Shown one piece after another: positions 16,202 through 62,946 of a stretch of 64,000 nt of DNA. The stretch is from Patiria pectinifera (lineage: Eukaryota > Echinodermata > Asteroidea > Valvatida > Asterinidae), in NCBI GenBank assembly GCA_029964075.1, contig CM057144.1, positions 3,557,281-3,621,280 on the forward strand. Reading direction: 5' to 3'. The translations under genes were made by a program, and so were the position numbers. Below the pieces are notes generated by a model that was not told where the DNA came from, did no database searches, and saw only the letters and a program-made list of their open reading frames with translations. Position 1 is the first letter of the stretch, and each line of letters begins with the position of its first letter.

Positions 16202-19200
16202 ATGGTGGAAGAAGTGGTTCCATTCAAGGGACAGAGGTATGCTGACATAGTGGAGGGATGCTTGGCCAGTGGTACACTATGGGAAGACCCCGAGTTCCCT
16301 GCAACTGATGCCTCGTTGAACAACCAGCCATCCCCTTGGCGGGAATGGAAGAGACCTAAAGTGAGTAATATATGCACATTTCAACTCCTCTGGACCATGC
16401 ATATTCATGAGCATAACATGCTGACTTCATTGGTCAGTGGTCCAAGACATCAGGGTATGCTGGCTTAAAGATGCATTCCCTCTGCTATTTTTGAATTTCA
16501 TCCCACAAAAAAAAAAAAAATTCTAGATTACTATTTTTTTCTGGCAATACAAACATTATTCACTTTTGAATAAGACATCGACTGAATAAAACGCAGACCA
16601 GAAACCAGTCTGCTTGCAAATCTGTCCCGAGCCCAAAACAAAAATCTTTCAGTAAGGGAGTCGCAGACATTCCCCCCAAAAAATAATGGACAGAGGAGGG
16701 GTTTTTTTTGGTTGGAATGAAACCTATAAGTTGAACATTTATAATTAAATTTGTTGGGGGGAATTAGTTGAAGAGCATGGAGAATGCAACTTTAAACCCT
16801 GTTTACTGAAATGGTGAACCCACGATATGTTCAATGATTTTTTTTTGTTTCAGGAGATTTGTCCCAACCCCCACCTTGTCGTGGAAGGGACAAGCACCGG
16901 GGATGTATCGCAAGGTGGGCTGGGCAACTGTTGGTTCGTAGCTGCCTGCGCTAGCTTGGCCCAGGAGAAAGAACTGTGGGAAAAGGTAAACATCCCAATA
17001 ATTTTGTTGTTTATGCTCAGCCGTGCCTATATTATACTTCAAATCCTCTGCTTCAACATATTGACAGTGGTTGCTGAAGGATTTGGCAGGATTGAGGCAG
17101 TGGTCACCCCTCCAAGGACCATTCTGAAAATAACGGAGTATTTTGCTGGATGGAGGTTGTATACTCTTTTTACATGGAGGCAGTTGGAGGATTTTGCAGG
17201 ATTGAGGTTACATCCTAGCAAAAATGCCTAGGGAGTTATTAATACAGGCTTTGCCCTTCATTGTATACATGTGATTGTAGCATTGTATTTTCAGTGCCCG
17301 AGAGAAAGAAATTTGTAGAAGACTAGATTATGTGGTGCTGGTGTTCTTGGGCAAGGCATTTTACTACAAGTTTCTCTTTCCATTCAGAAGTATACCTGTG
17401 AGGGTATACGAAAGTAGATTATAAATGGTGCTTGTGTTCTTGGGCAAGACACTTAACTACAATTTTCGCTTTTCATTCAGGAGTATACCTGTGCGGGTAG
17501 AGAGCAGATTATATATGGTGCTTGTGTTCTTGGGCAAGACACTTTACTACAAGTGTCACACTCCACCAAGGAGTGAGGGTAGAGACCATGGTGCTTGTGT
17601 TCTTGTACTTGACAGTTACGCTCCAATTAACTGCCTCACTCCATGGTGCTATCTATGGTGCTTGTGTTCTTGGGCAAGGCACTTTACTACAATCACCTCA
17701 CTACCCAGGAGTATACATTGGTACCTGTGATGGGGTATAGAGACCAGATTGCGCTGATCTGGAACTTGAGAAAACATCTCATGGCCCAGTGAACAGGGTT
17801 AATAATGTAAAGTGCTTTGAGACTTTGGTATGTGCGTAAGCACTTTATAAGCACCTCATTGTAATTTTTGTTTTCACGTTGCTTGCATTTTTTTTCTCAA
17901 GGTGGTACCCGACTACAAGGAGCAGGATTGGGACGATGAGAATCCAGAGAAGCACTCCGGAGCCTTTCATTTCCGCTTCTGGCGATTCAATCAGTGGCAC
18001 AACGTGGTCATTGACGACCGACTGCCGACCAACAAGAAGAAGAAGCTGATCTATGTGCGATCCAAGCACACAAATGAGTTCTGGAGCGCGCTGCTTGAGA
18101 AGGCCTATGCAAAGTAAGCCGACTCCAGAAAAAAAAATCATTCATTCCTTTGGCATTTCAGAAGTTATTTTGAAGATCGAAGCAACATTGTTCAAAATCT
18201 TAAGCAGAGTGCATATAGAAACTAACTTGTTAAAGCCTGAGCTCAGTGGCTGCTTCACATTTTTTTTGTGAAGCAGAGAAAACGTTTGCACAATGTATTG
18301 GGTCCGTACGTCGGGGTCCGCTCATAAGTCTGACGCCTCAAAGGTCCGACGCCTCACAAGTCCAACAAAATCGCATCCCCTAACCAAATAAAGGCCCATA
18401 AGTCCGACACCTCATAAGTTTGACGCCTCATAAGTCCGACGCCTCATAGCTCCGACGCCTCATAGCTCCGACGCCTCGTAAGTCGGACAATTTGAACGCC
18501 TCGTTTTTCCAACATCGGACTTATGAGGAGTCAGACTTATGAGGCGTCGGACCTATGAGGCGAAATACATAAATTGTATGCCTCATAAGTCCGACGCCTC
18601 ATAAGTCCAAAATTTCGGACTTATGAGGCGTCGGACCTAAGAGGCGTCGGACTTATCATACGGTCCCCGTAGGTCTCATCAGTAGATTCTACAGCTAATG
18701 CATGTATTAAGTGCATCCACATCAGGCACCCTATTTTGAAACTACACCCCACGCTGTGTGGTGTCAGTTTGTGAAAACCGCATATCAAGCTTTTTGGTTT
18801 CACGAACTGACACGCGGGTCGCGCACATTTGTACACTGACGCATAACAGAACAAGTTTCGTTTTCACAAATTGACACTCAAGAATATGGCAAGGATACAA
18901 TTTGGAGAAAAACGCTTTGAAAGGTTTCACACGAATTTAATCCATCCGTATAGTTGTGGGCTTATAGAGAAATTAATGACAAACCTTATTCTGGTGAAAT
19001 TAAGACCAGATGTCAGTTTGTAAAAACAAAAATGTACGGAGTGCGCAGGTGTATTGTCGGGTGTCAGTTCGTGAAAACCAAACTAAAGCTGTTCTGTAAA
19101 TTACGCGCTCGTGCCAGGCACTCACGTGCAACTGAGTGTCTTAGTTTGTTGTGTCGGTAACAATTTAATGCCAGTTGTGTATCTTCACTTTGAGCATTAA

Positions 19201-22200
19201 GGTTTCTGTCGTTAAAAATCAATGGTTACTTTAAGTTTTTGGGTAACTTGAGAATTAACCTATGTGGCTTTCAACGAGATTCACTAAACATTCTTAATCT
19301 TACAGACTGAACGGTTGCTATGAGAACCTGAACGGAGGCAACACCGCTGACGCGCTGGTGGACTTCACCGGTGGAGTGGCGGAAACGATCTCGTTAACGG
19401 ACGAGAAGTACATGCAGGACTTTGAGAAGAAGAAGGAGTTCCATAAAAGTCTCAAGAAGTACAGCGACAGGAACTTCCTCATGAGTGCCTCTATCAAGGT
19501 ACGAGTGATTATCATTTGTATACACTTCATAGCACCACGGTGAGCTGCCGTGAACTTAGATCCTCTCGTTAAATGAATGGAATTGGAGAGTTGTGTTCAA
19601 CTAAATTATTTCAGAACAGTTAGTCCAGTGATGTGCAAGAGTCATGTGCTCACAGAAGTAGACCTGGACCAGCACCCACGATTTCACAAAGCGCTGTATG
19701 CGACGCGTACTTTTCGCTAAACAAGTTGTTGATTTATCATGTTAATCACATCGGTTTGCACTTTGACATTGTGGGCAGGCGTCAGCCTTTGTGAAACGAC
19801 TAAAATACGTTTAAACAGTTGTTAAAATATTTGCTAAACGTTTGCAATCGATGAAATCGTGAGTATTGTTGTATTGCTTATTTATGCAGGAGAAATCGGC
19901 CGAAGAGATGGAGGAGAAGACCGATGTTGGGCTGGTCAAAGGTCACGCCTACGCAGTCACCGCCGTCAAGACAGTCAAGCTTGGTGCTGCCGGCTTACTG
20001 TCTCTGTTCAATACGGAGAAAGCACACCTTGTCAGACTGAGAAATCCGTGGGGCGAGAAGGAATGGAACGGACCGTGGAGTGATGGGTGAGTGCTAGGGT
20101 TGTGAATTATTGTCTCGCCTGAACTTTGTTCAGGAAAGAGACTATGCAATCACTACGTCTGTTCATGTACATTGTAGTATGTGGTATTTTGGTTAAACTT
20201 TTATAAAATTGGCCTAATTTCCCAAGTTGAAGTCCAATTGGAACCATTAACTTGAATCATAGATGCAACATGGGAACCTTCATATGATAATGGTGTCAAA
20301 GCTCACATACCAAGGTCGAAGGTCATCTGGGGTCAAGGCTGAACATGTAAAATCGGTCTCATAATTTCAAAAGTTCAAGTCCAATTGGAACCAATCAAAC
20401 TTGGGTCATGCAACATGGCAACCTTCATGTGATAATGAAGTCAAAGGTCGCATACCAAGGCCAAAGGTCATCTGAGTTCAAGTTGTAAAATAGGCTGAAA
20501 ATGTGAAATTGGTCTCATTTGTAAAGTTGTTGTCCAATTGGAACCGAACTTGGGTCATATAGCTGCATCATGGCAACCTTCATACTGATTTCTCACTCTT
20601 TTAAGATAATCGCAAAAGTACACGAGACGCATGGTTCAAGAACCATCTTGTTGGATACTTTATTATTATTCGATTATGGAACACATGATATATTCAAATA
20701 TTTGAATATTCAAATATTTGAATATTCAAACATTGTCATTTGAGGTAAAATCTTTGTCTCAAATATCTTGAATGTAATCAATATATTTGTTTGTGTCATG
20801 GGCTGACCATTATATGGCCATTGTCGAATCTTCTTTGTCAATCTTCAGATCACCAGAATGGAATAAAGTCAGCGAGCGCCAGCGAGAGAGCCTTGGGATC
20901 ATCTTTGACGACGATGGAGAATTCTGGTAAGCTCATTTGCTTGAACAGCATCAGAACAAAAAGTCATGCATATGTAGGATTTATATGCCACAAAAGATGT
21001 TGGGGAGACGTGCAGTGTACCTTTGATTGAAACTTTGGGTACATATACCTGCAGATGTGCAACATCTTTAAATATACATGTACAAAGTGCTATATAAGCA
21101 CCATATTACGTTATATTTTTATTATTTTTTTATTTCAGGATGCCATTCGATGACTTTTGCACCAACTTCACACACCTTGTGATCTGCCGCATGCCCAACA
21201 AGCGCTACTTGAGCATTCGGCGCACGTGGCACGAGAAGGTGATGATCTCTGCTTGGAAGAAGGGTCCAGGGAATGCCAACAGAGCTGGAGGGAGTATTAA
21301 GAAGAACAAAGAGACATTCCTACAGAACCCACAGGTAAACATAACATGAGCAGTGTGCATGGCTGCATGCCACGGACATCTTGGGAATATCTAGTCTGAT
21401 GAGTATCATCCGTTATCCACGGAACCAACTCCTGTATAACGTCTGATATGTCTAGCCATGCAGATATATGCAAGCCGCGCGCCAGCCAAACGGAGTCGAC
21501 TTTACTAAATCGTGACGTCATTTCATTCCCAAATCGGGACTAAATGGTTTGATTGGTCCATTCGAATGCAGTGTTTTGTAATACAACAACAGCCAGGCCC
21601 ATAGCGCGTAACATGATAGAGAGCGCGTGACACAGTTTTTTTTTATCCATTGTCTATATGACGCGCAACGGGTGAAAGGCCGAAGACGCGATATAGAAAG
21701 TGCCTGCTGATTGGTCAAAATCTAGGAGGTCAAGAGGTAGGGTCTTGCCTAATTAATCAGCGAATCTGCTCGCTAGGAAATTCAGGCCAGGGCTTGGGAA
21801 CTTTTCACTGAGACTTGGGAATTATATTTTTGCGTAGGAAGTTGTTGTTTAGGCACAGCTTGATCCTGAAAAGTCAGTCACTGACTGTACTAGCAGCTGT
21901 ACTCGCCGAACGGTCAACTTGAGGGCGGTTTAAAATCATAACATATAATTTTTTTAAAAGATATGAGGAGGTAGGTGCCTCTGGTACGATGTTTATTTGC
22001 ATGCACCAAGCATTACAAGCCAGCTTACTGTACTTGACATGGCTTCATAGGTTGTTGGTTCTCACCACTATTTCGTCGCGTCAATGCAACAAGGTCGTAT
22101 CTCCTAAAATGTCAAACTCAAAACGCGAGTTTTAGAATGTCAAAAGGTCGTATCTCGCTTAAAATAACCCGGATGTACACGCAGAGTCAGTGGACGTCGA

Positions 22201-25200
22201 GATACGACCTTGCTGCACAGAGCGTGTTCGCGCGAGATACGACTTTGTTGCAGAATAAAGTTACGACCTTGTTGCACTGACGCGACGATTAAATTTTTTC
22301 CCCCATTTTTTTCCAAATCTTGTTTTGCTTGGTCAAATTATTTGCTGCCATCAACGCGAGTTGTCACAAGTTACCAAAAATTGCAACTTGAGTTTGACTT
22401 GTGTCAACTTAGCGATTCCAGTCATTGCAACTCGGCAAATATATTTACATATAGAGGGTGTTTGCGTGTTAACATTTTCCAGAAAATCAACTACCCTTCC
22501 AACTTCTTGTCATTTGTACATGTAGTTCATGATCTGCGTGGATAGCGATGTAGATGATATCATGCTCTGTTTGACTCAACCTGATCTGCGAGCTGAACAA
22601 AAAGAAAATAAAATCATGGGATTTAATCTGATGAAGGTACGTATCCCCCTACCTTAAGTAAGTGAATGCTAATAGAATTTTGCAAATATATTGCAAAACT
22701 TTAGTCAATTTCAGAAATTTCAGTTAGTCAATTTCGGAAACATATTGCCTAAATGCTTAGCATGTAGCATCATGGAGTTGAAGATAGCATTTTGTATGAG
22801 AATAATAATTCCTTTTTTTTCGCTGTTCAAATTCCACAGTCAATTCTTAAAAGAACTTAAGTTTATAGGTGAAGTTTGGTCAAGTGAAGTTATAGTTCTC
22901 ATTGCAGTAAGATTTATGTACTCGGTCCAGTGGTGTTTTATTTTTTACGGAATACCTACAACTTGATATCAAGTTGTGGGAATGCCACAAGCGGAGAAGA
23001 GGACAAACAACTTGATATTATTATCCTACTTCATTTCCAAATCCCATGCCACACTTTTGTACTTGTGTGTGGAATGACCCATATACGTAGCATTGCAACC
23101 AGTGTTTTGGTTACATCATGGAGGTAGTTCTACCTCCATGGTTACATTGTCTCCTTATCCACATATACGGAAGGTTGAAGATAACCGTGAATACAGACTC
23201 CACACTCCCGGAGAAAAGGTGCTCAATTCGACCTTCATCAATGCGCGCAGCGTCTTTGAGAAGTGCACACTCAGTAGAGGGCGCTACGTTGTCCTGGCGA
23301 CGACCTATGATGCCGGCGAGGAAAGCCAGTTGATGATGAGGATCTTCTCTGACGAAGGGGCCAACTGCTGGTAAAAATGGCTAGTATTTGTCAAACTTAA
23401 ACCTTGTCGTCCGTGTGAATTTTACTAACTGTTTCGTTTTTGGGGCGCTGTGTGAAAATTAATCATTCTTTCTCATAACTGAATCAGACCATATGGATGA
23501 TACTTACAACGTGACTAGCTACTCGTGCGCCTAGATCTTACAGACCGTAGGTGCTAAGACCACTAACCACATGTGGTTGGACCGGCAGAGTGACTCTGCC
23601 ATAAATATTCGTCTTCCAAGTGAATTTCCTTTTTTCCAAAATGGCTTGATCAAACTAGCCCGGCCCGAAAATCGCAAATGCAAAACCGAAACCAGCCTAA
23701 CCCAACTGAAATTATGGACAAACCGACCCGACCTGACCTGAAGTCGGTTTCGGGTTGGTTTGCCCAACACTACTCAAAGGGATATAAGCAAACAATGTGG
23801 TTTACTCAGTTTAATTGCTTTATCAGAATTTGACTCAAACAGCCATGAGACTTGCTTTGACACTGAAAATTGTTGAAAGAGAATTTTTGTTTGCTTTCAT
23901 TCTTAGTTTGTACTTGAAAATTTAAATGAATCTAAGTTGTGTCCTGAGAACAAAAATAGAGAAATATTTCAGTGAAATTTGTGATAATACACGAAAGTTA
24001 CTTATTTATTTAAATTCAGGGAGTTAGTTGAAGAGGCTCCAACTTCTGGGCATCCACAAGTTGTGTCCAAGATTACCGTGCTGGGGGCTACTGAACTGCA
24101 GAACCAGGATCTCCTTGGAGGTAAGAAGTGTTGTGGTTTATCACAAGTCCTCACAAGTCCTTCGCAAGCCCATCACAAGCCCATTACAAGTCCATCACAA
24201 GTCCATCTCAAGCCCATCAGAACTCCATCGCAAGTCCAGCGGAGGTCCATCACAAGTCTTCACAAGTCATAACAAGTCCATCACAAGCTCATCACAAGTC
24301 CATCAATCACAAGTCCATCACAAGTCCATCACAAGTCCATCACAAGTCCATCACAAGTCAACCACAAGTCCACCACAAGTCCATCACAAGTCCATCAGAA
24401 CTCAATCACAAGTTCATCACAAGTCCATCACAAGTTCATCACAAGTCCATCACAAGTCCATCGCAAGTCCATCGCAAGTCCACCACAAGTCCACCACAAG
24501 TCCACCACAAGTCCACCCCAAGTCCATCACAAGTCCACCACAAGTCCACCACAAGTCAAACACAAGTCCATCACAAGCTCATCACAAGTCAACCACAAGT
24601 CCATCACAAGCCCATCACAAGTCCATCAATCACAAGTCCATCACAAGTCCATCACAAATTCATCGCAAGTCCATCACAAGTCCATCGCAAGTCCATCGCA
24701 AGTCCATCACAAGTCCACCACAAGTCAAACACAAGTCTATCACAAGCTCATCACAAGTCAACCACAAGTCAATCGCAAGATCATCACAAGCCCATCACAA
24801 GCCCATCACAAGCCCATCACAATTCCATCACAAGTCCACCACAAGTCCATCATGACAAGTCAACCACAGGCCCACAACAAGTCCATCGCAAGTCCACCAC
24901 AAGTCCATCGCAAGTCAATCGCAAGTTCATTGCAAACCCATCATAAATTATCTGTTGTTTATGCTATTCAGGTGCTGATCCGTATGTGTATTTGAGATGG
25001 GACAACGATCAGACAACGCAGTCCCCTGTCATCAAGAACACGCTCAATCCCGAGTTCAAATTCAGTGCCATCATCTACCGCACGAAACCACAAGATCCCA
25101 TTGTGGTGGAGGTAAACTTAAGTATATCTCTTTAATTACTTAGTAGTAGAAAAATGTTGTGTTTTTTTTTAACTACTTTGAGACTTTTTAGAATTTGACC

Positions 25201-35451: not shown

Positions 35452-38400
35452 ATGGCAAGCGGTGATTCCGCCATCGAGATCATGGAGCTGTCTCAGTCCC
35501 CTGATCACATTGTCGCTGAGAGTCACGGAGACGAAGCTGTGGAAGAAGACGTCTTCCTGCCGACAACGCCGGTTACCAACTTCGCGCGGTTGCCCGCCAG
35601 AGCTCATTCCACCCCGCGACCCAAGGGCAGTGTGACGGACTCGGACCCGCCGCCGGATTACCCCGTGACGCCTACCAACCAGGCAGCGGAGCACCGTTAC
35701 CCTGGAGGCGACGTAGACTTTGCTGCCGGAAATGAGGGGAATAATCTGAAGCCGTGCGATCTGTGCGGCGCGGGACGAAAACCGTTCTTCTTTTGCCTGG
35801 CGCTGTTCGCCATGGCGGTGCTGGTTGGGTTTCTCGTCGGTTATTTTGTACGGGAGAAGGTTTACGAGAGGGAGTCGGCGATGGTTCGCGGGATGACCCC
35901 GGCCGAAACGAGGGATATGTATCATCAGCAGGCAGTGAACAACGTCTCAGCAGTCAGGATTGCTGATTATGCCAGGTAAACAAAGATGATCAAACGCACA
36001 GACAGGGCCTAGTAAAGATGGTCCCACAGCACACAAAATTCTGTTCCGTTGATTCGGAATGGCTATTCATTGGTAGTCTGTCGTGCATCAGTGTTACACA
36101 AAGGCTATATTTAGCCCATTCATTGCCCTTTAAGGGAACCTATACAATAGCACTGCCCAGCTCATAAGTGACTGTGAGTAAGTCAATCAGACAGTACAAT
36201 AGAAACAAATGGGACCCTTGGCTGCCTTCTGTGACCCAAAAATCAATGTGCATGTTTTTATGAGTTATTTTTTTAAATGAAATTATGGTATAAAATTATG
36301 TTGGTAAGGGAGAAACCAATAATAACCCTCCTATACCATAGGTCTATCACAAACTGTCAAAAAACTTAACCCCTGCCTCTGAGTACACCATTATTATGTT
36401 GCCGCCATCTTGATATTTGCCCATTCAAATCATCATAACCAAAGCGAGGCTGGAAGGAAAATTAGTCTGGTTCCTTTTTGCACAAAATACATCATTCAGT
36501 CTTTTATGTATCTTTGGATACAGGGAACATGACTGAAATGGTGGCAGCATGATAAAGGTCTTGTACAGGCTGGTCATGCACTACCAGAAACCCTATGGAT
36601 TAAGGGACCATTTAAAAGTTTCGATGTTTTTAAATTTCGATTGTTTTTATCGAAAATATGGGTGGGTGGGTCAAGTTAAATTATCGAAAAATCTAAATTT
36701 TAGGGCCAAATTCCATAACACCATTCTCTGTCAGTTGAACCTTCATTTGTCCGTATATCTGCAAGACCATTTTCTTCATGAAGGCTGTAAAAAGGAAACC
36801 ATTTGCCTCAGAAGTGTGCAGAATAGTACGAACGACTGCCAGTAAACGATTGTGAAAGTGTTACTTTCATATGCTGAGGTTTGGTCATATGATACAAGGT
36901 CACACATGAAGATTAGACAATGTTGAAAGAAAAAATTCCCCAAAACTTTACCCAAAGTTTGGAAGTTGGAAATATCCAATTAGTAAGTGATTACATCATA
37001 ATGTACACACATTTCCTTGTATTGAGGGTGCATATCCCATTATGGGACTTTGATAAGGACTGAAAAATCCACGTAGACATGCGCGCTTGTACATAGGGAC
37101 AGTCCCGATTTTACTCGCGGTCACACCACAAGTCCTCAGGAAATGGCAGAACAATAATATTTATATTTTAAAAATGAAAAGAGGATTTCCTCAATGGCTA
37201 GTCAGTTGGAAAAGTCAGCAACTGTTGTAGACTATGTTCCTTTTTTGTTTTTATCTTGTTTACTTAACTTGTGTACATACAGTCTTTTCCTTATTGTTTT
37301 TTCTGATTCGTTGCTTCTTACTAAAAAGTACTACTATACTGTACATGTGTACTTTGAATCATTTTATCAAAATTTTGTTCAATTTGAATTCACATTTGAC
37401 CACTTCCTTGATAAGAATTTGACTCCACACAATAAATAAAATGAGTGGACAAAAGATCAAATTGCAATCTTAATGAGAAACAGACTATTAGGCCAAAAAA
37501 AAAATAAGTCGGTCTCTGGTCAGCGCGTGTGTCGATTTTAATCATGCGCGTCAATCTTTTTTTTTCCCAAAATGTTCCGCGGTAGCTCCAACAGCGCCCT
37601 CTATTGCCGCACCTCCTCAATTTTTTTTTACCAAAGAGCACCAAGGAATGGGAAATTGCACCAAGGCAAATGATCGAGAGCATCAAGGCAAATTATGGAG
37701 GACACCCAATGTACATGAGGACACCAAAAAACAAAACAGTACCCCACCTTGTCTGTACAATCCAAGCTTGAAGAAAAAAAATCCCAAACCCCCTCCCCCA
37801 AAAAAAAGCCGCGTCCCCGCGTCAATTCCGGAACTTTGGTCTGACCAGAGACAGAATTTTTTTTTTTTTGGCCTTAGTCTTATTTCTTCTCAAAGACTCA
37901 AAACAGTTACAAAAATCACACGTTGGTATTAATTATCTGTTTTGACATGTTTGATAGTTGTTCATGGCACCCTCAAAATGTGTACTAAATCACAATGACA
38001 ATTGTGTAATGGTAGCACTTAACTTTTAAGTTTTAGTGTGATGGCCCACCCATCCAAAACTTCTCGTGAAGAAAACTATAATGGTATATTAAAAGCTACT
38101 TGTACAGTGTGTGATTGTTCCACTGTTTGGAAAATGTACACTGACTTCTGTTACTAGTGTCCGCTTAGTACTTTTTTCACTAACTCACTGACTCAGGATT
38201 TTAAAAAAATACTGTTTTGAAATCTGGAGTTTGTGCGATTTTGTACCGTAAGGGTATATATAGAGGTTTATATAAAACAAATGAAAATGGGTATTTTAAG
38301 GGTGTTTGTAGGCTAATATAAACATATAGAAAAGTACAAATTGCTCTGGTGCCCTCAACAACACTCAAACCCTCGGCTGATTACTTCATGGATTTTTCTT

Positions 38401-41400
38401 TTCTCCAAACACACCCCGGGCTGTGAAATTGAAGATTAAGATTGTTTCTGGATTTCTTTTCTGATAGCAAGTTCAGCAAACACGAGTGTGAGAGTGGCGT
38501 ACCATGCAGTCAAAGCATGTCCACAGTGGTCGTGCAACAGCTGCGGGATTTAGGCTTCACCGACGTGCGTGTGTCATCGTACGACGTCCTCACGTCGCAC
38601 CCTGACATGTCGCGCCCGAGCACGTTAAAGACCATGAACCCTGAGGGGGATGTGTTGCACACAGAGGTCCTGTATGGGGATGAGATGGGCTCAGATGACG
38701 GAAGTAAGCCGGCTAACGATGCGAAGAGAAGAGCAGTTGGTTCGGGTCAAGATGCGACAAGTTCTGCCGGTGGTGCGCCGACTGTCATGTTCATGCCATT
38801 CTCTGGCTCCGGTAATGTTCAGGTATGTATGGGCTCCTTGCGCTAACAAGAGAGGGCATTCTTTTACCGATTTCGACAGCCCAGTGGAGGGACACACCTC
38901 CTGCGCGTACTGGTTCGTGCGCGTAAATTACGCACGACTAATTGTACTCTGAATGGTCACGTGAGTGCCATCAGATTTTGTTGCCAATTTGTTTGCATGT
39001 CTCTCCCAGTGTTCTCCCCCAAGTCTGTCACAAGTCAATATAGCCCATCAGGCTGGTGTTTATCTCCGGTTTCTGTGGCATGAAACAACTGACGGTATTT
39101 TTATTCCCCCCCTGATGGGATGCCGATCCATCACAGGTTAGTCTCCAACTAATTCCGGTACCCATTTGTACTCCTGGGTGGAGAGAGGCAAGTGGGGGTA
39201 AAGTGGCTTGCCCAAGGGCACAACACAATGACCAGCAGCTCGATTTGAACCACTGACCCTCTGATCATGAGTCACAAACCCTAACCCCTGGGCCACAGTA
39301 AAGTACAGTGCAATACAAGTGATTAGTGGATTTATTCTACAAGTGCCCACGATCAAAGTTGTTGATGTTTTATATTTTCTCAGGGAGAGCTGGTGTACGT
39401 GAATCAGGCCAGTCAGGGGGACCTTCTTGTGCTGACCGGAAGCAACATCGGCCTGTCTGGTAAAATAGCCATCGCTCGTCAAGGGACCATGATGGTTATG
39501 GATCAGGTATTGCGTCCCAAGCTAAATTTACACAACTACATCACTTTGATAAACGTTTGTGATGTGTTTCATTATGACGTAGTTTAAATGAATTCAAGAA
39601 TATGGAAAAAATGGGCTAAAGAAAAATAAATAAATTGGGGTATATTTTTACACTCGTCACATGTTGTGGCAATGTGTATCACTGATATGAGATGAGAGAT
39701 ATTATCTACAGTCGACTCGTTAATACAAACTCGTCCAGACCTAGCCAAAATGTTTGTTAAATCAGAATTTTGTATTAAGAGGAACATCAGTCCCATTGAT
39801 TGTGCACAAAATGCACTGTCAGGCCAAAGGCTTTGTTTGTTATAACCGTAATTTGTATTAACAGTATTTGTACTAACGAGAGTCGACTGTCACTGTACGT
39901 ATCTGTTAGGTCAGGAATGTGGAAGAAACCGGCATGAAAGGACTGATTCTGTACACAGACCCAGCGGACATGGATGTCATCATGATGTCAGGAACGGAGC
40001 GTTTGGTTGGAATGACCGGTATGATGGGTGATCCATTGACACCTGGTTGCCCAGCCATGGGTAGGTCTACTATTCTGTAACTTGAAAACCTTGGACCTGT
40101 ACCTGTTTTGTTTTCACTGGAGCTACCGCGGTAAAATGTGGTAAAAAGATACCGCGGTAAAAAGTTACTGCGAGTGATTGTTAACATTCCATTGTGGTTA
40201 TTCTACCGTGTGTCTGCATGTCCGTGTGCTTGTGAGTTAATTTCTGCCCACAGAAAGTCTTTTGTTGCGTAAACTTTACCGTACCGTTCTCTGTCTGAAT
40301 TTAATAAAAAAATGTCATACTATTGCCGTCGTAACCTAACACCGGCTGTGGATGTGAAAGAATGGGCCAAATTTAGTATTGTTAGAATATGGCAGAAATA
40401 CTGCAGAATCTCGCGTACAAAATGTCAGCCTAGGCGTGTGACTTACAGAGGTCAATAAAAGTTACTCACATAGAAGTCATAGCAGTGGCCGTCTGCCAGG
40501 ACTTTTCAGTGATGTAAAGGAACAGCTTATTTTGTTTCCCACACCCCAATTTGCCCTGCCAAATTTTCCACTGCGGACCGCAAAACTAACAATCGACAGT
40601 CGACGCTTCGGGGAGTTAACCGGAATTAATAGCAAATACATGTCAGCTGTTACAATATTCAGCATAAGATTGCATTGTAACACTATAGTTGATTAAACTG
40701 AATGTTTTTAATCCGTCAGATGGCATAAGTCGCATGTCAATGGACAAAGCCAAGCTACCGGGCATTCCTGTGCAGCCAGTATCGACAGAGCTAGCAATGA
40801 ATCTACTACGGAACATGACTGGACGAATGGCACCGCAGGACTGGCAAGGGGGGCTAGATGTAACCTACACCATGGGCCGCAGAAATACGAGTAAGAAAAT
40901 TGTCCGTAGCATAAAGCTCTATCTTCAAGCAACCTTGAATCCATGATCCTGATTGGTCAATCCATGGCAACAACAGTGTGGTATTTTATACAAATAATGA
41001 AAGTTTGTGAGTGCAATGGTAAGAATAATTCCATGAGGTGACAGATGGAGTGTTCCATAGTGGAATGGAACATTCCATCTTCCAATGAAGGCTTGCCAAA
41101 ATAAGTTGAAGTTGGTTTCAAAGACTTCAATGTCTTTTATATCTTTATCGGAATGGCACACAAAGATTCTAACCATTTTTATGTCAGAGAAAAGTGTACA
41201 ATTGAAAAAACGTACTTTTAAAGAGCATAGATTCATTATCCAATCATTTGTACTGACTGCGTTATTATGGTTTGTTTGATACAGGGAAACCTACCTGGAC
41301 CGTACAGCTGGATGTAAGTAACATGCAGCAACAGCAGGCAATTCACGACGTGGTAGCGACCATCACTGGAACACAAATGCCAGGTAAAGTTAACTACAAG

Positions 41401-44400
41401 TTGCATTGTAATGTGTTCTGTCAAAAGCAGTCTCCTTTAGTCATGAGTGCTTGTGCTTATTGTTGGTTTCAAAGGGGAGAATCAAGCCATTACTGAGACG
41501 GATTCTCAACAGCCATGGTTAAACCACTGTGTTCACTAGGCCGTTGCAGTGCGCTTCAACGATCATGGTTGCACCGTTGTTGACATCTGAGTGACGTCGT
41601 GACCATTTCAGCAAATTCTGTTATTTCATTTCTACAACAGATGAATACATCATCCTCGGCGGTCATTTCGCAAGCATGATGTCCAGTATGGCCGTAACGA
41701 CCTCCACGGCCTCCGACCAAGGGTCGTTGTCCATGTTCATGGAGACGGCCGCCGTGATGGGTCAGATGATGTCATCAGGCTGGCAGCCCCAGCGTAGCGT
41801 GGTGCTTGGCCTGTGGGGCGGCGCCGAGTACGGCCATGCTGGCTCCATGGAATGGGTCGAGGAGCATCGGAGTGTATTAATGGAGAGGGCGGTATCGTAC
41901 ATTGATCTGGATACTATGATGATGGAGGAGAGTATGGTTGTAGCACAGACGTCACCGCTGCTCAAAGGGCTGGTCATGAAAGCAGCTGACATGGTTGGTT
42001 ACTGATTCATTACTTCTGTAAATACTATACCCATTAGTCCCTGTAGCTCCCGAAAACCGCTCTTCCTGTTACCCCCTGTCATGCCTGAAAGCGCCCGAAA
42101 GCGCCCGAAAAAGCAACAAAGTTTTCAGTGAATAAATACAATATTATACAACGAGGCTTGCCACACAAGCTAGCAGAGGAGGCAGCTTCGTCACCTATGG
42201 CATGCTTCGCGGGGGGCGAGGGGCGACAAAGCTGCCTCTCGCCTCTCGCCAGCTTTGCAGGTCAGAGTGGCGATCAACTCATGAGCGATCAACTCATGAA
42301 CACAGTCACACCTTTTGCACTTTATTGTATAGCAGTGATGTAGTGCAGGTGCTTATGGCTTAAATAGACCGTTATCATGCTGCCACCATTTCAGTCATGT
42401 TCCCTGTATCCAGTCACGGTACTGAATGATAATGCTTCTAGTGCAAAAAGGAACCAGACTATTTTTCTTTCCAGCCTCGCTTTGGTTACGTTGATTTGAA
42501 TGGGAAAACTCCAAATGGCCGCAACATGATAATGGTCTATTGAATGGACAGTTTTGATCAGTATTTTGATGAACTAGGTCAAGGCTTTTCATAATTTGGT
42601 CATTTTATTGTGGTAAAGTGCAGAGCCCTGTTTTAATAACATAAACAGTGCAAGGTGTCCATAGTTATTTTCTATTTTTATTTGCCTCTAGTTGGAACTG
42701 AGTGACATACAGCCAGGCATGTTGAGTGGTGTAGGGGACCATGTTGCATTCACCCATATGATTGGTATCCCATCTGTGCGTCTACATGCCACACAGGGTA
42801 TGCAAGCGGTAAGCATACTTTCGTGAATTCTCAATTCCATCATGTCTGGAGTTATACATTATATATCATTTAACCATTTTGTCTCTGTACCGCCCAAAAC
42901 CGCCCAGCCTGTTACTCCTTATACTGCCCCAAACAGCCACAGTACTCTGTGGTTTCATAGCTTCATCAAGATGCAACTACAATGTAATACAATGTAATTT
43001 AAGTTGTGATGGATTAAATAATGATTTCCTCTTACAAAATATGATACAAACTTCATATTAGTATTAGATATTTTCGGAAGTGTGTGCTTCAGTATTGTTT
43101 TATCTGCACATATTTGATGGGTTTTTTTTTTTTTTGCTCCTTGCCTTGTTTTGGTGTAGTTTTGGAAAAGATTGGTGGAACATATGGGAAAATTCCAAGA
43201 AAACAACAGTTTATATTCTTTTATTTTATACAGTTATGAATAAAGAGGCTTGCCTTGCCTGCTTCAAGGGGAAGGGAAGGGGGGGGGGGCTTCACGGGCG
43301 AGTAGCCTGCTTCGTGAACAACACACATACCAAATGTAGACATTCCTTTGTGTTTGTATAGTTAAGAAAAACCGAAGAAAAAATCTCATTTTACTCCAAC
43401 TGTGAACACTCTTTCAACCCAAATTTTTTTATCATCATTTCGTGGAGTGGTGTTCCTCACTTTGCGATAGATAACCCTAACCCCAAAATGCCTTTAAACC
43501 TGTTTGCCAGAGAGGGGGAAACCTTGTGTGGACGTGGGTACAATGTAAGTCCACGAAACATTCACACGTCCTGCACCCTGTGGACCTCTTTTGTCTGCAA
43601 AATCCACGTCCTGTCTGCAAAAAGTTTGATTTTTCCGTCAATGTTTTGTCTAGGGTTCCCCCACCGGTTCCCCCACCGGTTCCCCCACCATGTCTGCGCA
43701 CATGTCTGTGACCCGGCTTGCCACCCAGATGGTACTCCTGCTTGCTGATAGCGATATGATCCCGTTTGACACCGGTGCTATGGGAGAGATGTTGGTTGGT
43801 TATATGAACAGTCTGGATTCCAAGATGGGTGACATGTTATCCCTCAGCAATATGACGATGGGTAAGAGCACATTAAATTGGCTTTGTAGGACGGCTTCAA
43901 AGCGTCTCCGCATGCAAGAATGAAGAGTTAGTGCTCTAGTAAATATTAATATAGCTCTATGCACAGGACGCGCTTGATTCATGTAACACAAAAATTTCTC
44001 ACAACAAGAATTCTTTTCACCTCCTAAAACATTTTCTTTTAATTGTCCATGTTTTCCAGACAACCTCAAAGTGGCCGTGACAGACTTCATGGATGTTACT
44101 ATGGAGATGCAAAGCATGATGGGAAGTCCTTCCATGATGGAGTCCTCCATTACCATGACGATGGTGAACCACAGGCTGATGTACATGGAGAGATCATTTG
44201 TGGACATGGACCCTAGTGGTTCTATGATGTAAGTGCAGACTGGTATAATTAATTTGTTTACACCGTTATCAGACTTTCTCCCGCCAAACCAAATTATTTT
44301 AAAACAAGTGCCAGTGTACAATAAGCTCTGGCGAAAAATGTGACGCCGATGGCACATATTGAACACCATACTTTTGGTCAAGTTTCATTTCCTCCTCCTG

Positions 44401-45332
44401 GATATTGTCCAACCGCTACACAAAATACCACGTGACTATAACATTACTGCACATATCTTGCCTCCGTTTACAACATTTTCAAATTGTTACAAACAATTTT
44501 TAGAGTGCATTTACTGATTACGGCAAGGCATTTGCTCAATTGTTGGTCAAATATTTTTCGGTCAAATGTTTTCGGTCAAATTTTTTTGGTCAAGGGACGG
44601 ACAGACAGACAGACCAACCGACTCTAGTCAAGGAAACAAAAATCAGTTTCGGTCGACCTGAGCTGCTACCAAACATGTTTTGTGAAAAGAAAAGGAAAAA
44701 AGGAGGGGTATATGCTTTATGTCAATATTATCCTGTTGTTTTGGGGTTTTTTTAACAATAGAGAATGCGGGAAAGGGGTCTTGAAAGATGCTCTGTATAT
44801 ACCATAGACCAAAAAATAAAATTTCTGAAATTTTATAACCAGCATGTTACGGGAACGCTGAATGTGGGTGCATGGTCGCGCAAGGCGACGCTCGCATGAC
44901 GCGTGAGTGTTATTTATCAGAATGAGCGTTGGCATAACATGGCAGTTATAGAACTCAGCATTTTGATAATCAGAAACGCACAACGCAAAGGCATAGAAAT
45001 GTTGGGTCTAGGACTTTTAATGTGTATGGTACATACATACATATGTATACAGTTTTTGAACAGCGCCCCCGAGTAGCAATGGTGTCCAGCCTCCCTCCCC
45101 CGGCCCCTCAAGAAATATAATTTCAAACCTCCATGTTCATTCATGTTTGCTTGTCTCTCCCTGTAGGCACGTTCTGTACGGTATGACGGAAATGGACACC
45201 TTTCCTCTGGTAGCACAGTATTCGCCCACTGGTATGAATAACGAAACCATGACGGCCCTGATGGAGCGTGTCTCCATCATTCAGTGCTCTGTCCAATCGG
45301 CGACCTTGTCTCTCAAGATGGACCTCACATAG
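35452..45332 (+). CDS. Transferrin receptor/NAALADase-like type II membrane protein, methionine-rich
   Basis: Eleven exons: 35452-35975, 38468-38822, 39384-39506, 39910-40060, 40720-40890, 41285-41383, 41641-41993, 42692-42808, 43654-43861, 44060-44228, 45167-45332; 811 aa. The cytoplasmic tail (1-110) has a PPDY motif (67-70) and a juxtamembrane CDLC; the membrane span is about 112-133. Then come a protease-associated domain (GELVYVN, GKIAIARQG, GLILYTDPAD, GDPLTPG), an M28-like domain (EYIILGGH, GWQPQRSVVLGLW, EYGHAGSMEWVEEH) and the dimerisation helices (NHRLMYMERSFVD, HVLYGM). Compared with PSMA, the first metal His is kept, the catalytic Glu is Ala (WGGAEYG), and the segment with the last metal His is not found. 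About 81 residues (10%) are Met. Exon 9 starts with three GSPT repeats. Probably a non-peptidase receptor; the ligand is unknown. The family call is firm, but orthology to TFRC or FOLH1 is not resolved. Confidence 0.88.
36386..36560. mobile_element. ~175-bp MITE (GACCATTATCATG ends), copy 1
   Basis: Inverted termini based on ACCATTATCATGTTGCGGCC. The body has GGAACCAGACTA and CATGTTCCCTGTATCCA (here in complement). It lies in intron 1 of the receptor-like gene. Sister copies are at 42365-42539 and 48228-48372. Confidence 0.72.
37489..37876. mobile_element. TIR element with AGGCCAAAAAAAA and CTCTGGTCAG ends
   Basis: TTAGGCCAAAAAAAA...CTCTGGTCAG at left pairs with CTGACCAGAGACA...TTTTGGCCTTA at right. 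It is a relative of the MITEs at 31233 and 33538, and lies in intron 1 of the receptor-like gene. Confidence 0.65.
39100..39296 (-). repeat. tRNA-derived SINE in receptor-like intron 2
   Basis: Same family as 25320-25527: on the minus strand GTTAGGGTTTGTGACTCATG, GTTCAAATCGAGC, CCTTGGGCAAGCCACTTTAC and GGATCGGCATCCCATC. Confidence 0.7.
42365..42539. mobile_element. ~175-bp MITE, copy 2
   Basis: Left TAGACCGTTATCATG and right CATGATAATGGTCTA are inverted repeats. The body GTCATGTTCCCTGTATCCA matches copies at 36386 and 48228. It lies in intron 7 of the receptor-like gene. Confidence 0.78.
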
Positions 45333-58400: not shown

Positions 58401-61400
58401 GTCACTCACACCCCTGTCTCTAACATAACGGGGACGAACCTGTGCTCACATGAACAGCGTGCCCATCTCTCTTTCGAAGCGATTGGGTCAGACTCGAGTT
58501 CATAAAATGCTGCTGTGGGGGGATCGCCACACCTCCTCCACAGCGAGTCTGTTACCTTCCCAGCATTGAATAATGCCGGTACCCATTTAATACCTACATG
58601 TAGGGAGGAGCAATTGAGGTAAAGCGCCTTACTCAAGGGCACAACACGCATGGCCGTGGTGGGGCTCGAACCCACAAGCCCATGATCATGAGGCCTGTGC
58701 TCTACCGCTAGACCACACGTGCCCTCTCTACACACCATAGCAGTAAAATATCTGACTTTCTTTAAACAGATGCACGTTATACATAAATGTTGGGGTTTTT
58801 TTACCTGAGGGTTCTGTAGGAATGTCTCTCTGTTATTGATACAGCCTCCAGCTCTGTTAGCCTTCCCTGGACCCTTCTTCCAAGCAGAGATCATCACCTT
58901 CTCGTGCCAGGTCCGCTGAATGCTCAGGAAGCTCTTGTTGGGCATGCGGCAGATGACAAGGTTAGTGAAGTTGGTACAAAAGTCGTCGAATGGCATCCTA
59001 AAAAAAATATTTTCAATAGGAATGCCACAAACATCTTAGCTAGTCCACTGCAAAACAACACTGCGTCTTGATTCAGATTCTGACCATTCAGAGGGTGCCT
59101 TCTTTTAGGTTTTCATAAATCTGATGTTGTATGACAAAAACATGGCCTCTATTGACCAATCACAGAACTAGGACCAATCTCTATGGACCAAGCAATAGCT
59201 TTGGCCGAATTTCTGCCGTCTAAATGAGGTCACAAAGGCAGCTCCGAATCGCTGGCAACCAGGGTCACATAAAATCTGCATGCTCGGTTATATTAGACAT
59301 TGAAGTGTGGTTCTGCACATGTGAATGTCTGATCCTCAGACAACAAACATCTTCAATACTGGCTTCATTTTTTTTTTGGTCCCAAATATTTAAAGACATT
59401 GCGCAGCTACCGCAAGAAGTAATTTCAATCGTACATACACTGCCTAGCTCCACAATTAGTATTTTTGCATAAATCCTACACCCGGCAACAGATGCTGTTC
59501 TCGGAAATCAACTTACCAGAATTCTCCATCGTCGTCAAAGGTGATCCCAAGGCTTTTTCTCTGGCTCTCGCTGACTTTCTGCCATTCTGGTGATCTGAAG
59601 ATCGATAGAGAAGATCCAACAATGGTTAGAATGGTCAGCCCATGACATAAACAAAAATACTGCAAGTAAAACTTGCGCGATTCCCCTGGCATCCAGAGAC
59701 CTCCGAGTCATTAGTAATTACTGACCTGAGCTCTCCAGAGACCTCGTAAATATCCATATTGGAAAGGATTTTTTTGACGTCAGCCTTCTCTTCCACAGAC
59801 CACCTGTCAAGTTTGATTGAGATTTATGACTGAACTTATAGTGAACTGGAACACACGCACACACGGACACACAGAAGGAATGTATACACGATTGCAATAT
59901 CCCTGTCTGGCTTGAAAGCCGGGGGAATTATCGATACATACACAATATTCATTGGAAACAAATGTTAACCTCAAATGTCAAAATTTGAATATTCGAATAG
60001 TCGATCAAATCCACGATCCAATAATCGAATACTTAATTATCCGGAAATGCCCAGCACTAACTCACCCATCACTCCACGGTCCGTTCCATTCCTTCTCACC
60101 CCACGGATTTCTCAGTCTGACAAGGTGTGCTTTCTCCGTATTGAACAGAGACAGTAAGCCGGCGGCACCAAGCTTGACTGTCTTGACGGCGGTGACTCCG
60201 TAGGCGTGACCTTTGACCAATCCAACGTCGGTCTTCGCTTCCATCTCTTCAGCCGATGTCACCTAGTAAATCAACAATATAACAATATTTAAGATTCGTT
60301 GCATCACTGCAAGAAGGTCATATGCCCATTCTGCAACATAGTCGTATCTAGCGCGAATACGCTCCGTGCAAAAAGGTCGTATTGTGACGTTTGTATGTAC
60401 ATCCGGGTTTTTTTTAAGTGAGATAGAACCTTTTGACATTCTGAAATTCATGTGTGGCCCATTTTAGGAGATTTCACCTTGATGCACGAACACCATGATT
60501 TATGTGTTTTACTAATCTCATATTTCTGCTTTTAACAAACTACTTCAAAATGTAAAGTAGGCAGCAGGGATTATTTTCACGTAAAACAACAACCGCAAAC
60601 TCTTCATTTTACATGGCAACTCACCCTGGTGCTATGAACTGCATAAAAAAGGATAATGACAGGGTATTCTATTCTAGGTCACTCGTACCTTGATAGAGGC
60701 ACTCATGAGGAATTTCCTGTCGCTGTACTTCTTGAGACTTTTATGGAACTCCTTCTTCTTCTCAAAGTCCTCCATGTACTTCTCGTCCGTTAGGGAGATC
60801 GATTCCGCCACTCCACCGGTGAAGTCCACCAGTGCGTCAGCGGTGTTGCCTCCGTCTAGGTTCTCATAGCAACCGCTCAGTCTGAAAAGGTAAAGAATGT
60901 TTAGTTTATCTCGTTGACAGCCACGTAGAATGATTTGCAATCACCCGGAAAAGTAACCGCTGATTAATAATGACATAAACCTTGCTCGAGGTGGAGATAG
61001 TAAGGTCAAGTCAAGTCAAGCATAGCACATTTATCTCCGGTTTCTTTGGCATGAAACAACTGAGAATACTTCTATCTTCCCCTGGATGGGATGCCGGTCT
61101 ATCAAAGGTAATGCCAGTACTAATTTATACTCATGGGTGGAGAGAGGCCAAGTGGGGTAAAGTGGCTTGCCCAAGGACACAACATATGGCCAGCAGCTGG
61201 ATTTGAACCCCTGACCCTCTGATCATGAGTCACGAAGCCATGAAGTGAAAATAAGACCGGTATATCCAATACCGATGATACAAAAATGATTGGCAAGAGT
61301 CATTTTTAACAGTATTTATATGATATTTCTTGCCGAAACCTCATATGTTTCAATACTCTGGGGTGTGCACTGGAGCGCAAAATGTACAACAATAGGCCGT

Positions 61401-62946
61401 GCACAACGGCCAATTCAAGATCATCACACGGTCCGCCTCAACAGACTTCACAGACTTTATGCGTGTGTTCGAAAGGCGTAAGAGATTAGCGTGTTTAGAT
61501 GTCACCCAGAGGCAAGTCAGGGCATTCTGGATGTCTTAACCCGTCAGCCGTGCCTGTGTATAAAAAGAGCCAGTGCGTGTTATCACGTCCTCCAACGCGC
61601 AATGTTGCTGCTTCAAACAAACAAAAATTGTGCAAAAATCAAATGATCCTGAAGTATCAATTAACTGAATTGTTTTTTTCTATTCAGCTTACTTGGCATA
61701 GGCCTTCTCAAGCAGCGCGCTCCAGAACTCGTTCCTGTCCGTGGAGTGCACATAGATCAGCTTGTTGTTATTGGTCGGCAGTCGGTCGTCAATGACCACG
61801 TCCAGCCACTTATTGAAACGCCAGAAACGGAAATGAAAGGCTCCGGAGTGCTTCTCTGGATTCTCATCGTCCCAATCCTGCTCCTTGTTGTCTGGTACCA
61901 CCTAGCAAGACATACGTAAGCAACACAAAACTAATAATGATATGGTGCTTATATACATGTAGTATAGCTGATACATGTATACCAACGTTTCAAAGCACTT
62001 CCCAATTATTACCCTGTTCATTAGGCCATGAGACAAGTTTTCTCGAGCTCCAGATCAGCGCAATCTGGTCTCTAAATGTCACATGTACCAATGTATACTC
62101 CTGGTTAGTGAGGTTATTGGAGTAAAGAGTCTTGCCCAAGAACACAAACGCAATATAAACTGATCTCTCTTATATCTAACAGGCATCCATTAATACTCCT
62201 ACATGTAGGCAGAGAGAGGCACTTGTAGTAAAGTGTCTTGCCCAAGAACGCAAGCACCATATATAATCTGCTCTCTACCCTCAAAGGTATCCTTTTTACA
62301 CTCCTGGATGGAAAACAATTGTAGTAAAGTGTCTTGCTCAGGAACACAAGCACCATATAACCTGATCTCTTCTCTGTCTCAAAGGTATCCATTAATACTC
62401 CTATATGTAGATGGAGAGAGGCACTTGTTAAGTGTCTTGTCCAAGAACACAAGCACCATATATTCTGCTTTCTATCCCTCATAGGTATCCATTTTATACT
62501 CCTGGATGGAGAAATTGTAGTGAAGTGTCTTGCTCAAGAACACAAGCACCATATAATCTGGTCTTTGGTTATTTGTTTCTATCAAGCACTGAAAACACAG
62601 TGCTAGCGGTACTTATGTCCATGAAGGGCAATCTAGGATGAAAAGACGTCCGACTGCAATTTTAAGCATTGATAGAAAGTTAAGTAAAGTCCTTTTGAAA
62701 AATCCAAATTTGTTTAGAAAGAAAAGAAGGCATTACATTTATGTCATTGCTCAGTGCATTTTATTGTCGAAAAACTCAACACCTCTGGTACTGGAAAGCA
62801 AACTGTTTACATACCTTTTCCCACAGTTCCTTCTCCTGGGCCAAGTTAGCGCAGGAGGCAACGAACCAACAGTTTCCCAGCTGGCCTTGCGATACATCCC
62901 CAGTGCTTGTCCCTTCCACGACAAGGTGGGGGTTGGGACAAATGTC
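52490..62946 (-). CDS. CAPN5: Calpain-5-type cysteine protease, copy B (exon 1 outside window)
   Basis: Minus-strand exons: 62946-62815, 61901-61693, 60881-60689, 60262-60066, 59803-59726 (extra), 59594-59517, 58997-58805, 57721-57611, 57003-56807, 54953-54829, 54235-54099, 52672-52490; 610 aa in view. Most aligned residues match copy A and every shared intron is at the same place and phase. The triad is intact: [14 protein letters not shown] and [15 protein letters not shown]. Differences are one codon fewer in exons 3, 7 and 11, eight more in the linker exon before C2 ([11 protein letters not shown]), and a changed C2 loop ([13 protein letters not shown]). A 78-bp exon with no counterpart in A sits inside the protease core. 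Intron 1 homology runs to the window edge, so exon 1 should start soon after 64000. It faces copy A tail to tail. Confidence 0.93.
54279..54692. repeat. Repeat with inverted ATCGTTTCGG ends in calpain B intron 10
   Basis: The first 280 bases are repeated directly at 57099-57400 (AATTATTGTTGAAAGAGCAT, ACGCATTTTCGGAAATTTCA, CAGTCGAAACGTTGAG). In addition ATCGTTTCGGTTTGCGGTAA (near 54468) is inverted at 54670-54690 (TAACCGCAACCCGAAACGAT). This may be a Penelope-related or other retroelement terminal piece. Confidence 0.6.
57099..57400 (+). repeat. Direct copy of 54279-54560 in calpain B intron 8
   Basis: Long near-identical blocks with 54279-54560, including GGCATGCTGTCATTTTGAAG and GTTTGTAGTTCATTCTTATA. 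The copies are about 2.8 kb apart within one gene. Confidence 0.8.
57845..58170 (+). pseudogene. Non-LTR retrotransposon 3' ORF remnant
   Basis: Plus-strand reading gives [14 protein letters not shown], and after a frameshift near 58015 [17 protein letters not shown] leucine/arginine-rich block followed by a C-x2-C...H-x4-C zinc knuckle is typical of the C terminus of jockey/CR1-type LINE reverse transcriptases. It is broken by the frameshift and sits antisense in calpain B intron 7. Confidence 0.65.
58560..58727 (-). repeat. tRNA-derived SINE with recognisable tRNA head
   Basis: On the minus strand the head reads GTGGTCTAGCGGTAGAGCAC (A box) and TGTGGGTTCGAGCCCCACCA (B box and T arm), with CTCATGATC where an anticodon loop would be, then CCCTTGAGTAAGGCGC as the body. 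It is close to a full tRNA but continues into SINE body, so I call it a SINE. Confidence 0.75.
59726..59803 (-). CDS. Extra 26-codon exon in calpain B protease core
   Basis: Bounded by acceptor TTGACAG and donor GTCAGT; length 78 bases, phase 2 at both sides, no stop. It would insert [20 protein letters not shown] plus VSGELR directly after the GPWSDG loop that follows the catalytic Asn, before SPEWQKVS. Exons 5 and 6 also join in frame without it, so it could be a cassette exon. It has no match in copy A intron 5 or in remembered calpain-5 sequences. Expression is unproven. Confidence 0.6.
61030..61240 (-). repeat. tRNA-derived SINE in calpain B intron 3
   Basis: Main family: ACTCATGATCAGAGGGTCAG, GGTTCAAATCCAGCTGCTGG, CCTTGGGCAAGCCACTTTAC, GGCATCCCATCCAGGGG, then a GAAACCGGAGATAAATGTGC tail that is also seen near 39055-39085. 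Confidence 0.75.
61345..61585 (+). repeat. Dispersed repeat, partner of 5395-5645
   Basis: CACACGGTCCGCCTCAACAG, TTAGCGTGTTTAGATGTCAC and CGTCAGCCGTGCCTGTGTAT match the reverse complement of 5395-5645. It lies in calpain B intron 3. Confidence 0.65.
62120..62570 (-). repeat. Minisatellite in calpain B intron 2
   Basis: Five units of 94-107 bases with GTCTTGCCCAAGAACACAAG at about 62131, 62238, 62332, 62434 and 62528. It is homologous to 17320-17760 in copy A, including the flank with GATCAGCGCAATCTGG. Confidence 0.85.

Follow-up and report, generated by a model that had tools for sequence, protein, structure and literature searches.

The closest relatives of solved structure to the gene described here are GCPII/PSMA (FOLH1) and GCPIII, both of which combine PA, M28, and dimerisation domains with a membrane helix situated close to the N terminus. 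TfR1 belongs to the same family and has lost its peptidase site. In GCPII, Glu424 is described as the proton shuttle, and His377, Asp387, Glu425, Asp453, and His553 are described as the zinc ligands (PMC10794815). Furthermore, NAALADL2 is placed in the GCPII or M28B family (PMC7429505; PMC10794815). Among the literature matches listed, no methionine-rich member of the family appeared in the titles and opening lines of the abstracts. This report is focused on such a member from Patiria pectinifera, its 11-exon gene, its degenerate peptidase site, and the distribution of its methionine (Met) residues.

The gene occupies positions 35452–45332 (+) of the window, the stretch of 64,000 nucleotides that was analysed as a whole, and was rebuilt from the genomic DNA. 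All 10 introns are bounded by GT and AG, and the joined exons read in frame through 811 amino acids to a stop codon. The 11 exons contain neither a frameshift nor an internal stop; the gene looks intact, as the first-pass annotation had maintained in calling it not broken. In the splice model, with all exons on the forward strand, exon 1 (35452–35975; 6 Met in 174 residues) encodes a cytosolic tail of approximately 111 amino acids that carries Cys102 and Cys105, a putative transmembrane helix, and the start of the stalk. The helix was placed by eye on a hydrophobic segment at approximately residues 112–132, and GCPII, starting at its own transmembrane segment, gives a weak alignment with residues 106–242 (21 bits, i-Evalue 0.0009). 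Exon 2 (38468–38822; 6 Met in 119) supplies the N-terminal part of the ectodomain, exons 3 (39384–39506; 3 in 41) and 4 (39910–40060; 8 in 50) the PA (apical) domain, and exon 5 (40720–40890; 6 in 57) precedes the entry into the peptidase-like domain in exon 6 (41285–41383; 2 in 33), where the Pfam M28 match starts. The M28-like core with the remnants of the dizinc site, located by the splice model and by alignments, lies in exon 7 (41641–41993; 16 in 118), and the domain ends in exon 8 (42692–42808; 3 in 39). Exon 9 (43654–43861; 11 in 69) is followed by exon 10 (44060–44228; 13 in 56), assigned to the dimerisation domain by Pfam, and by exon 11 (45167–45332; 7 in 55), which comprises the C-terminal end of that domain and the stop codon.

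Three Pfam domains are matched in order, each above its curated cut-off: PA at residues 292–359 (27.6 bits, cut-off 23.9), Peptidase_M28 at 464–626 (49.4, cut-off 21.3), and TFR_dimer at 700–806 (29.1, cut-off 27.1). In a phmmer search against solved structures, the best match is GCPII/PSMA (E = 6.2e-58), followed by GCPIII (2.8e-56), NAALADL1 (4twe; 4.6e-51, in one stretch across residues 270–806), and, more weakly than GCPII, TfR1 (1.7e-30). Judged by its sequence, the protein is a member of the M28B/transferrin-receptor family, and the earlier assignment to a transferrin-receptor/PSMA family is supported by the three domains together with the matches from GCPII to TfR1. Identical residues number 154 of 486 aligned with GCPII and 147 of 411 aligned with GCPIII. 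Relatives of exon 7 were also sought in collections of prokaryote genomes and viral contigs, in which animal genes are not expected, and none was confirmed there.

The peptidase site differs from that of GCPII at several positions. Ala536, encoded in exon 7, aligns with the catalytic Glu424, and His377, Glu425, and Asp453 are retained as His483, Glu537, and Asp565. Asp387 of GCPII aligns with Ser499, which is adjoined by Asp500, and its GCPIII equivalent is paired with Val493, at another point of the loop; the counterpart of this ligand is uncertain because the two alignments are gapped differently there. His553 has no counterpart in the 11-exon model, in which the stretch from the M28 core to the dimerisation domain comprises 51 residues (591–641) compared with 89 in GCPII (479–567), and is hence 38 residues shorter. 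A scan of introns 7, 8, and 10 with one motif did not convincingly locate an exon for the His553 segment and returned a single weak match, FPLTKYDT, at 43025. The first-pass annotation had considered the structural landmarks to be otherwise those of the family; this is correct for the domains, but not for the degenerate peptidase site or the shortened inter-domain stretch. Like TfR1, the protein is predicted to be an enzyme-dead pseudo-peptidase.

Its long cytosolic tail further distinguishes the protein from GCPII, the tail of which is shorter. A tail of more than 100 amino acids, a CxxC directly preceding the predicted membrane helix, and a degenerate site whose catalytic position reads WGG are suggestive of NAALADL2 and resemble a provisional human sequence of that protein. 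In a one-sequence BLASTP search, this provisional sequence aligned across the transmembrane segment and ectodomain (146 bits, E = 3e-40) with an identity of 23% (168 of 732 columns); the identity with GCPII in the aligned parts is higher, which argues against NAALADL2 kinship, and the BLASTP and phmmer bit scores of the two matches are not comparable. The protein is possibly NAALADL2-like, which, given the provisional reference, serves as a lead only. The provisional human sequence contains 14 Met in 795 residues, compared with 81 in 811 here.

The total of 81 (10.0%), initiator included, agrees with the approximately 81 Met in 811 residues first reported, and the claim that most lie in the ectodomain also holds, with 78 of them in its 676 residues. 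The database average for Met is 2.41%, and the binomial tail for the observed count against this value is 2.4e-26; in the outer part of the protein, the Met share is four to five times the usual one. By region, 3 Met are found in residues 1–135, which span the tail and the putative membrane helix, 8 of 147 residues are Met in 136–282, and 70 of 529 (13.2%) in 283–811. The densest exons are 10 (23.2%), 4 (16.0%), 9 (15.9%), 7 (13.6%), and 11 (12.5%); exons 7, 9, and 10, previously singled out as densest, are all high, but exon 4 had been overlooked. Compared with database averages, the ectodomain is low in Ile, Phe, Leu, Ala, Lys, Glu, Arg, and Asn and high in Ser, Thr, Gly, and Val. It contains 4 Cys in 676 residues, and its net charge (K and R minus D and E) is -31.

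ATG accounts for 81 of 812 codons in the coding frame; the two alternative frames have 19 of 811 and 2 of 811, and in the introns ATG occurs at 2.09 per 100 positions. The excess is confined to the coding frame, and ATG-rich DNA is therefore ruled out as the source of the Met. Ten fragments of neighbouring genes, chosen by eye with the aid of the open reading frame list and a coding score derived from the codon use of the Met-rich gene itself, were submitted to Pfam. The seven with a match, belonging to a HAD hydrolase and two calpains, contain 5 Met in 374 residues, and a region-wide Met-richness is excluded by these fragments; the three without a match contain 6 in 110, and all ten together 11 in 484 (2.3%). 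With ATG in excess only in the coding frame and with ordinary neighbours, the Met shift is therefore a protein-level effect local to one gene, and within the window it concerns this gene only.

The neighbourhood has further features. The calpain (Peptidase_C2) fragments at 16818–20018 (+) and 60134–61901 (-) flank the Met-rich gene and belong to two very similar genes in opposite orientation; two matching fragments agree at 30 of 33 and at 39 of 41 residues. The HAD-hydrolase exon, assigned to its family by Pfam, lies at 3450–3695 (+) and presumably resembles pseudouridine-5'-phosphatase. A 141-bp tandem pair with nearly identical copies occupies 14788–15062, and approximately 71 tandem copies of the 11-bp unit ATCACAAGTCC extend over 24140–24930, where all three forward frames are open for 240 to 275 codons.

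The sites that hold Met were compared with those of relatives in the printed alignments with GCPII, GCPIII, and NAALADL1, and burial was judged from these relatives rather than from coordinates. At 486 positions aligned with GCPII, the protein has 58 Met versus 12 in GCPII, 4 of them shared; at 411 positions aligned with GCPIII, 55 versus 8, with 3 shared; and at 166 C-terminal positions aligned with NAALADL1, 30 versus 2, with 2 shared. Classified by the GCPII residue, the 58 Met fall on 29 hydrophobic (VILMFWYC), 21 polar (DEKRNQHST), and 8 A/G/P sites, for which BLOSUM62 predicts 6.6, 2.8, and 1.1, corresponding to excesses of 4.4, 7.5, and 7.5 times. In the reverse direction, the Met of GCPII are near expectation in the same classes (8 versus 11.8, 4 versus 2.9, and 0 versus 0.9). 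Met is in excess in every site class and is therefore spread through all kinds of sites, with the larger fold change at polar sites and the larger absolute number at hydrophobic ones. More of the Met look like replacements of core-like residues than of polar ones, and the polar positions that gained Met are presumably exposed. The first-pass annotation had described a surface composition shift; the 21 Met at polar sites are consistent with this description, but the 29 at hydrophobic sites are not, and the Met would in part be buried and scattered.

The reading that we favour, at slightly better than even confidence, is that of an intact, non-enzymatic surface protein, the ectodomain of which has taken up Met diffusely, with no designed metal site. 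The gene would encode a single-pass type II membrane protein belonging to the M28B/transferrin-receptor family, in which peptidase activity is very probably absent, so that the ectodomain would have been freed from catalysis and could have accumulated Met through ordinary substitutions, in exposed positions as well as core-like ones, with Met serving as a flexible general hydrophobic residue. The protein would most likely function as a dimeric receptor or scaffold at the surface, with no enzymatic role; the dimer and the surface location are inferred, and the consequence would be diffuse, namely an oxidisable, sticky, thioether-rich ectodomain. An artefact of the gene model or a pseudogene has very little probability. 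It might be suspected because the acceptor of exon 9 falls on a perfect threefold repeat of the 12-bp unit GGTTCCCCCACC (43654–43689, +), encoding GSPT three times where GCPII carries the conserved and here missing His553 segment, and because intron 8 holds a second open, in-phase segment (43362–43544, +) flanked by an acceptor that looks plausible and by the donor GTAAGT. This segment, possibly an alternative exon or a chance occurrence, shows no recognisable family resemblance, gave no family motif with the one pattern applied, and is absent from the 77 segments that score as coding by the codon use of the gene. Moreover, all 11 exons are free of frameshifts and stops, and the same frame aligns the Met-rich stretches with GCPII, GCPIII, and NAALADL1. 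A soft-metal ectodomain binding Cu(I) or Ag(I) is improbable too, despite the 70 Met in 529 residues and the placement of Met487 and Met488 after His483 and of Met567–569 after Asp565, two of the retained zinc-ligand positions. Eleven spacing and neighbour patterns in the ectodomain were counted and compared with shuffled sequence. The counts of MM, MxM, MxxM, MxxxM, two longer spacings, and triple Mets, as well as those of Met near His or Cys, next to basic residues, or next to Ser or Thr, are not clearly above those of the shuffled ectodomain: MxM 9 versus 8.9, MxxM 8 versus 8.9, MxxxM 11 versus 8.9 (reached by 26% of shuffles), the triple motif 1 versus 3.6, His or Cys near Met 10 versus 11.5, and Ser/Thr-adjacent Met 35 versus 28.2 (8.5% of global shuffles). 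A copper protein of the Mets-motif type receives no support from the MxM and MxxM clusters, which do not exceed composition. Of the 51 positions lying no more than 8 residues from one of the three retained zinc ligands, 8 are Met, not clearly above the regional share, and core-like sites hold half of the alignable Met. The metal link that had first seemed attractive thus gained no positive support. Diffuse substitution is preferred over a designed binding site because all site classes are raised without an enrichment of Mets motifs.

The remaining alternatives assign the Met a selected function, and any redox, metal, or ligand role is speculative. The 7.5-fold excess at polar sites and the acid-adjacent Met, which number 28 versus 16.9 expected (a value reached in a fraction of 0.003 of the global shuffles and 0.012 of the local ones, for one of the 11 patterns and uncorrected), hint at a selected surface property and argue against diffuse uptake. 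In a redox buffer, surface Met would absorb oxidants and be recycled by methionine sulfoxide reductases, thereby protecting the surface or sensing oxidation. The excess at polar and probably exposed sites and the scarcity of ectodomain Cys are consistent with this; the 29 of 58 alignable Met at hydrophobic sites are not, and extracellular recycling of Met is not known to be an established route, so that we regard a redox buffer as unlikely. The closest published parallel to the Met load is the Leu-to-Met excess in Antarctic fish proteins, for which the authors proposed redox sensing, although they found no evidence of positive selection (PMC6336007). The Met of proteins secreted by bacteria has likewise been described as an antioxidant strategy (PMC5526929). 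An acidic, Met-rich surface might instead capture hydrophobic ligands, namely varied basic or amphipathic peptides. Flexible Met side chains bind peptides in calmodulin and the SRP54 M domain, and by this analogy the net charge of the ectodomain and the above-chance acidic neighbours of Met would fit peptide capture. Against it, acid adjacency is an uncorrected result, and the only fold, an AlphaFold model of exon 7 alone, has a mean pLDDT of 44.9, offers no groove or helix arrangement, and was not used; peptide capture accordingly has a slim chance. A fairly slim chance, likewise, is given to the broader proposal that selection remodelled an enzyme-dead receptor of the PSMA/NAALADL2 type, such that a Met surface would sense oxidants or capture soft metals or hydrophobic ligands, with a Met-lined former zinc cleft beside the retained His, Glu, and Asp.

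A protein of more than 800 residues in which the domains of a known fold persist at 10% Met provides an unusual natural experiment. It raises the question of how far Met can replace other residues, and of whether a Met shift in a pseudoenzyme receptor reflects drift or an adaptation for redox chemistry, ligands, or metals. The solved structures of its relatives make the Met question testable.
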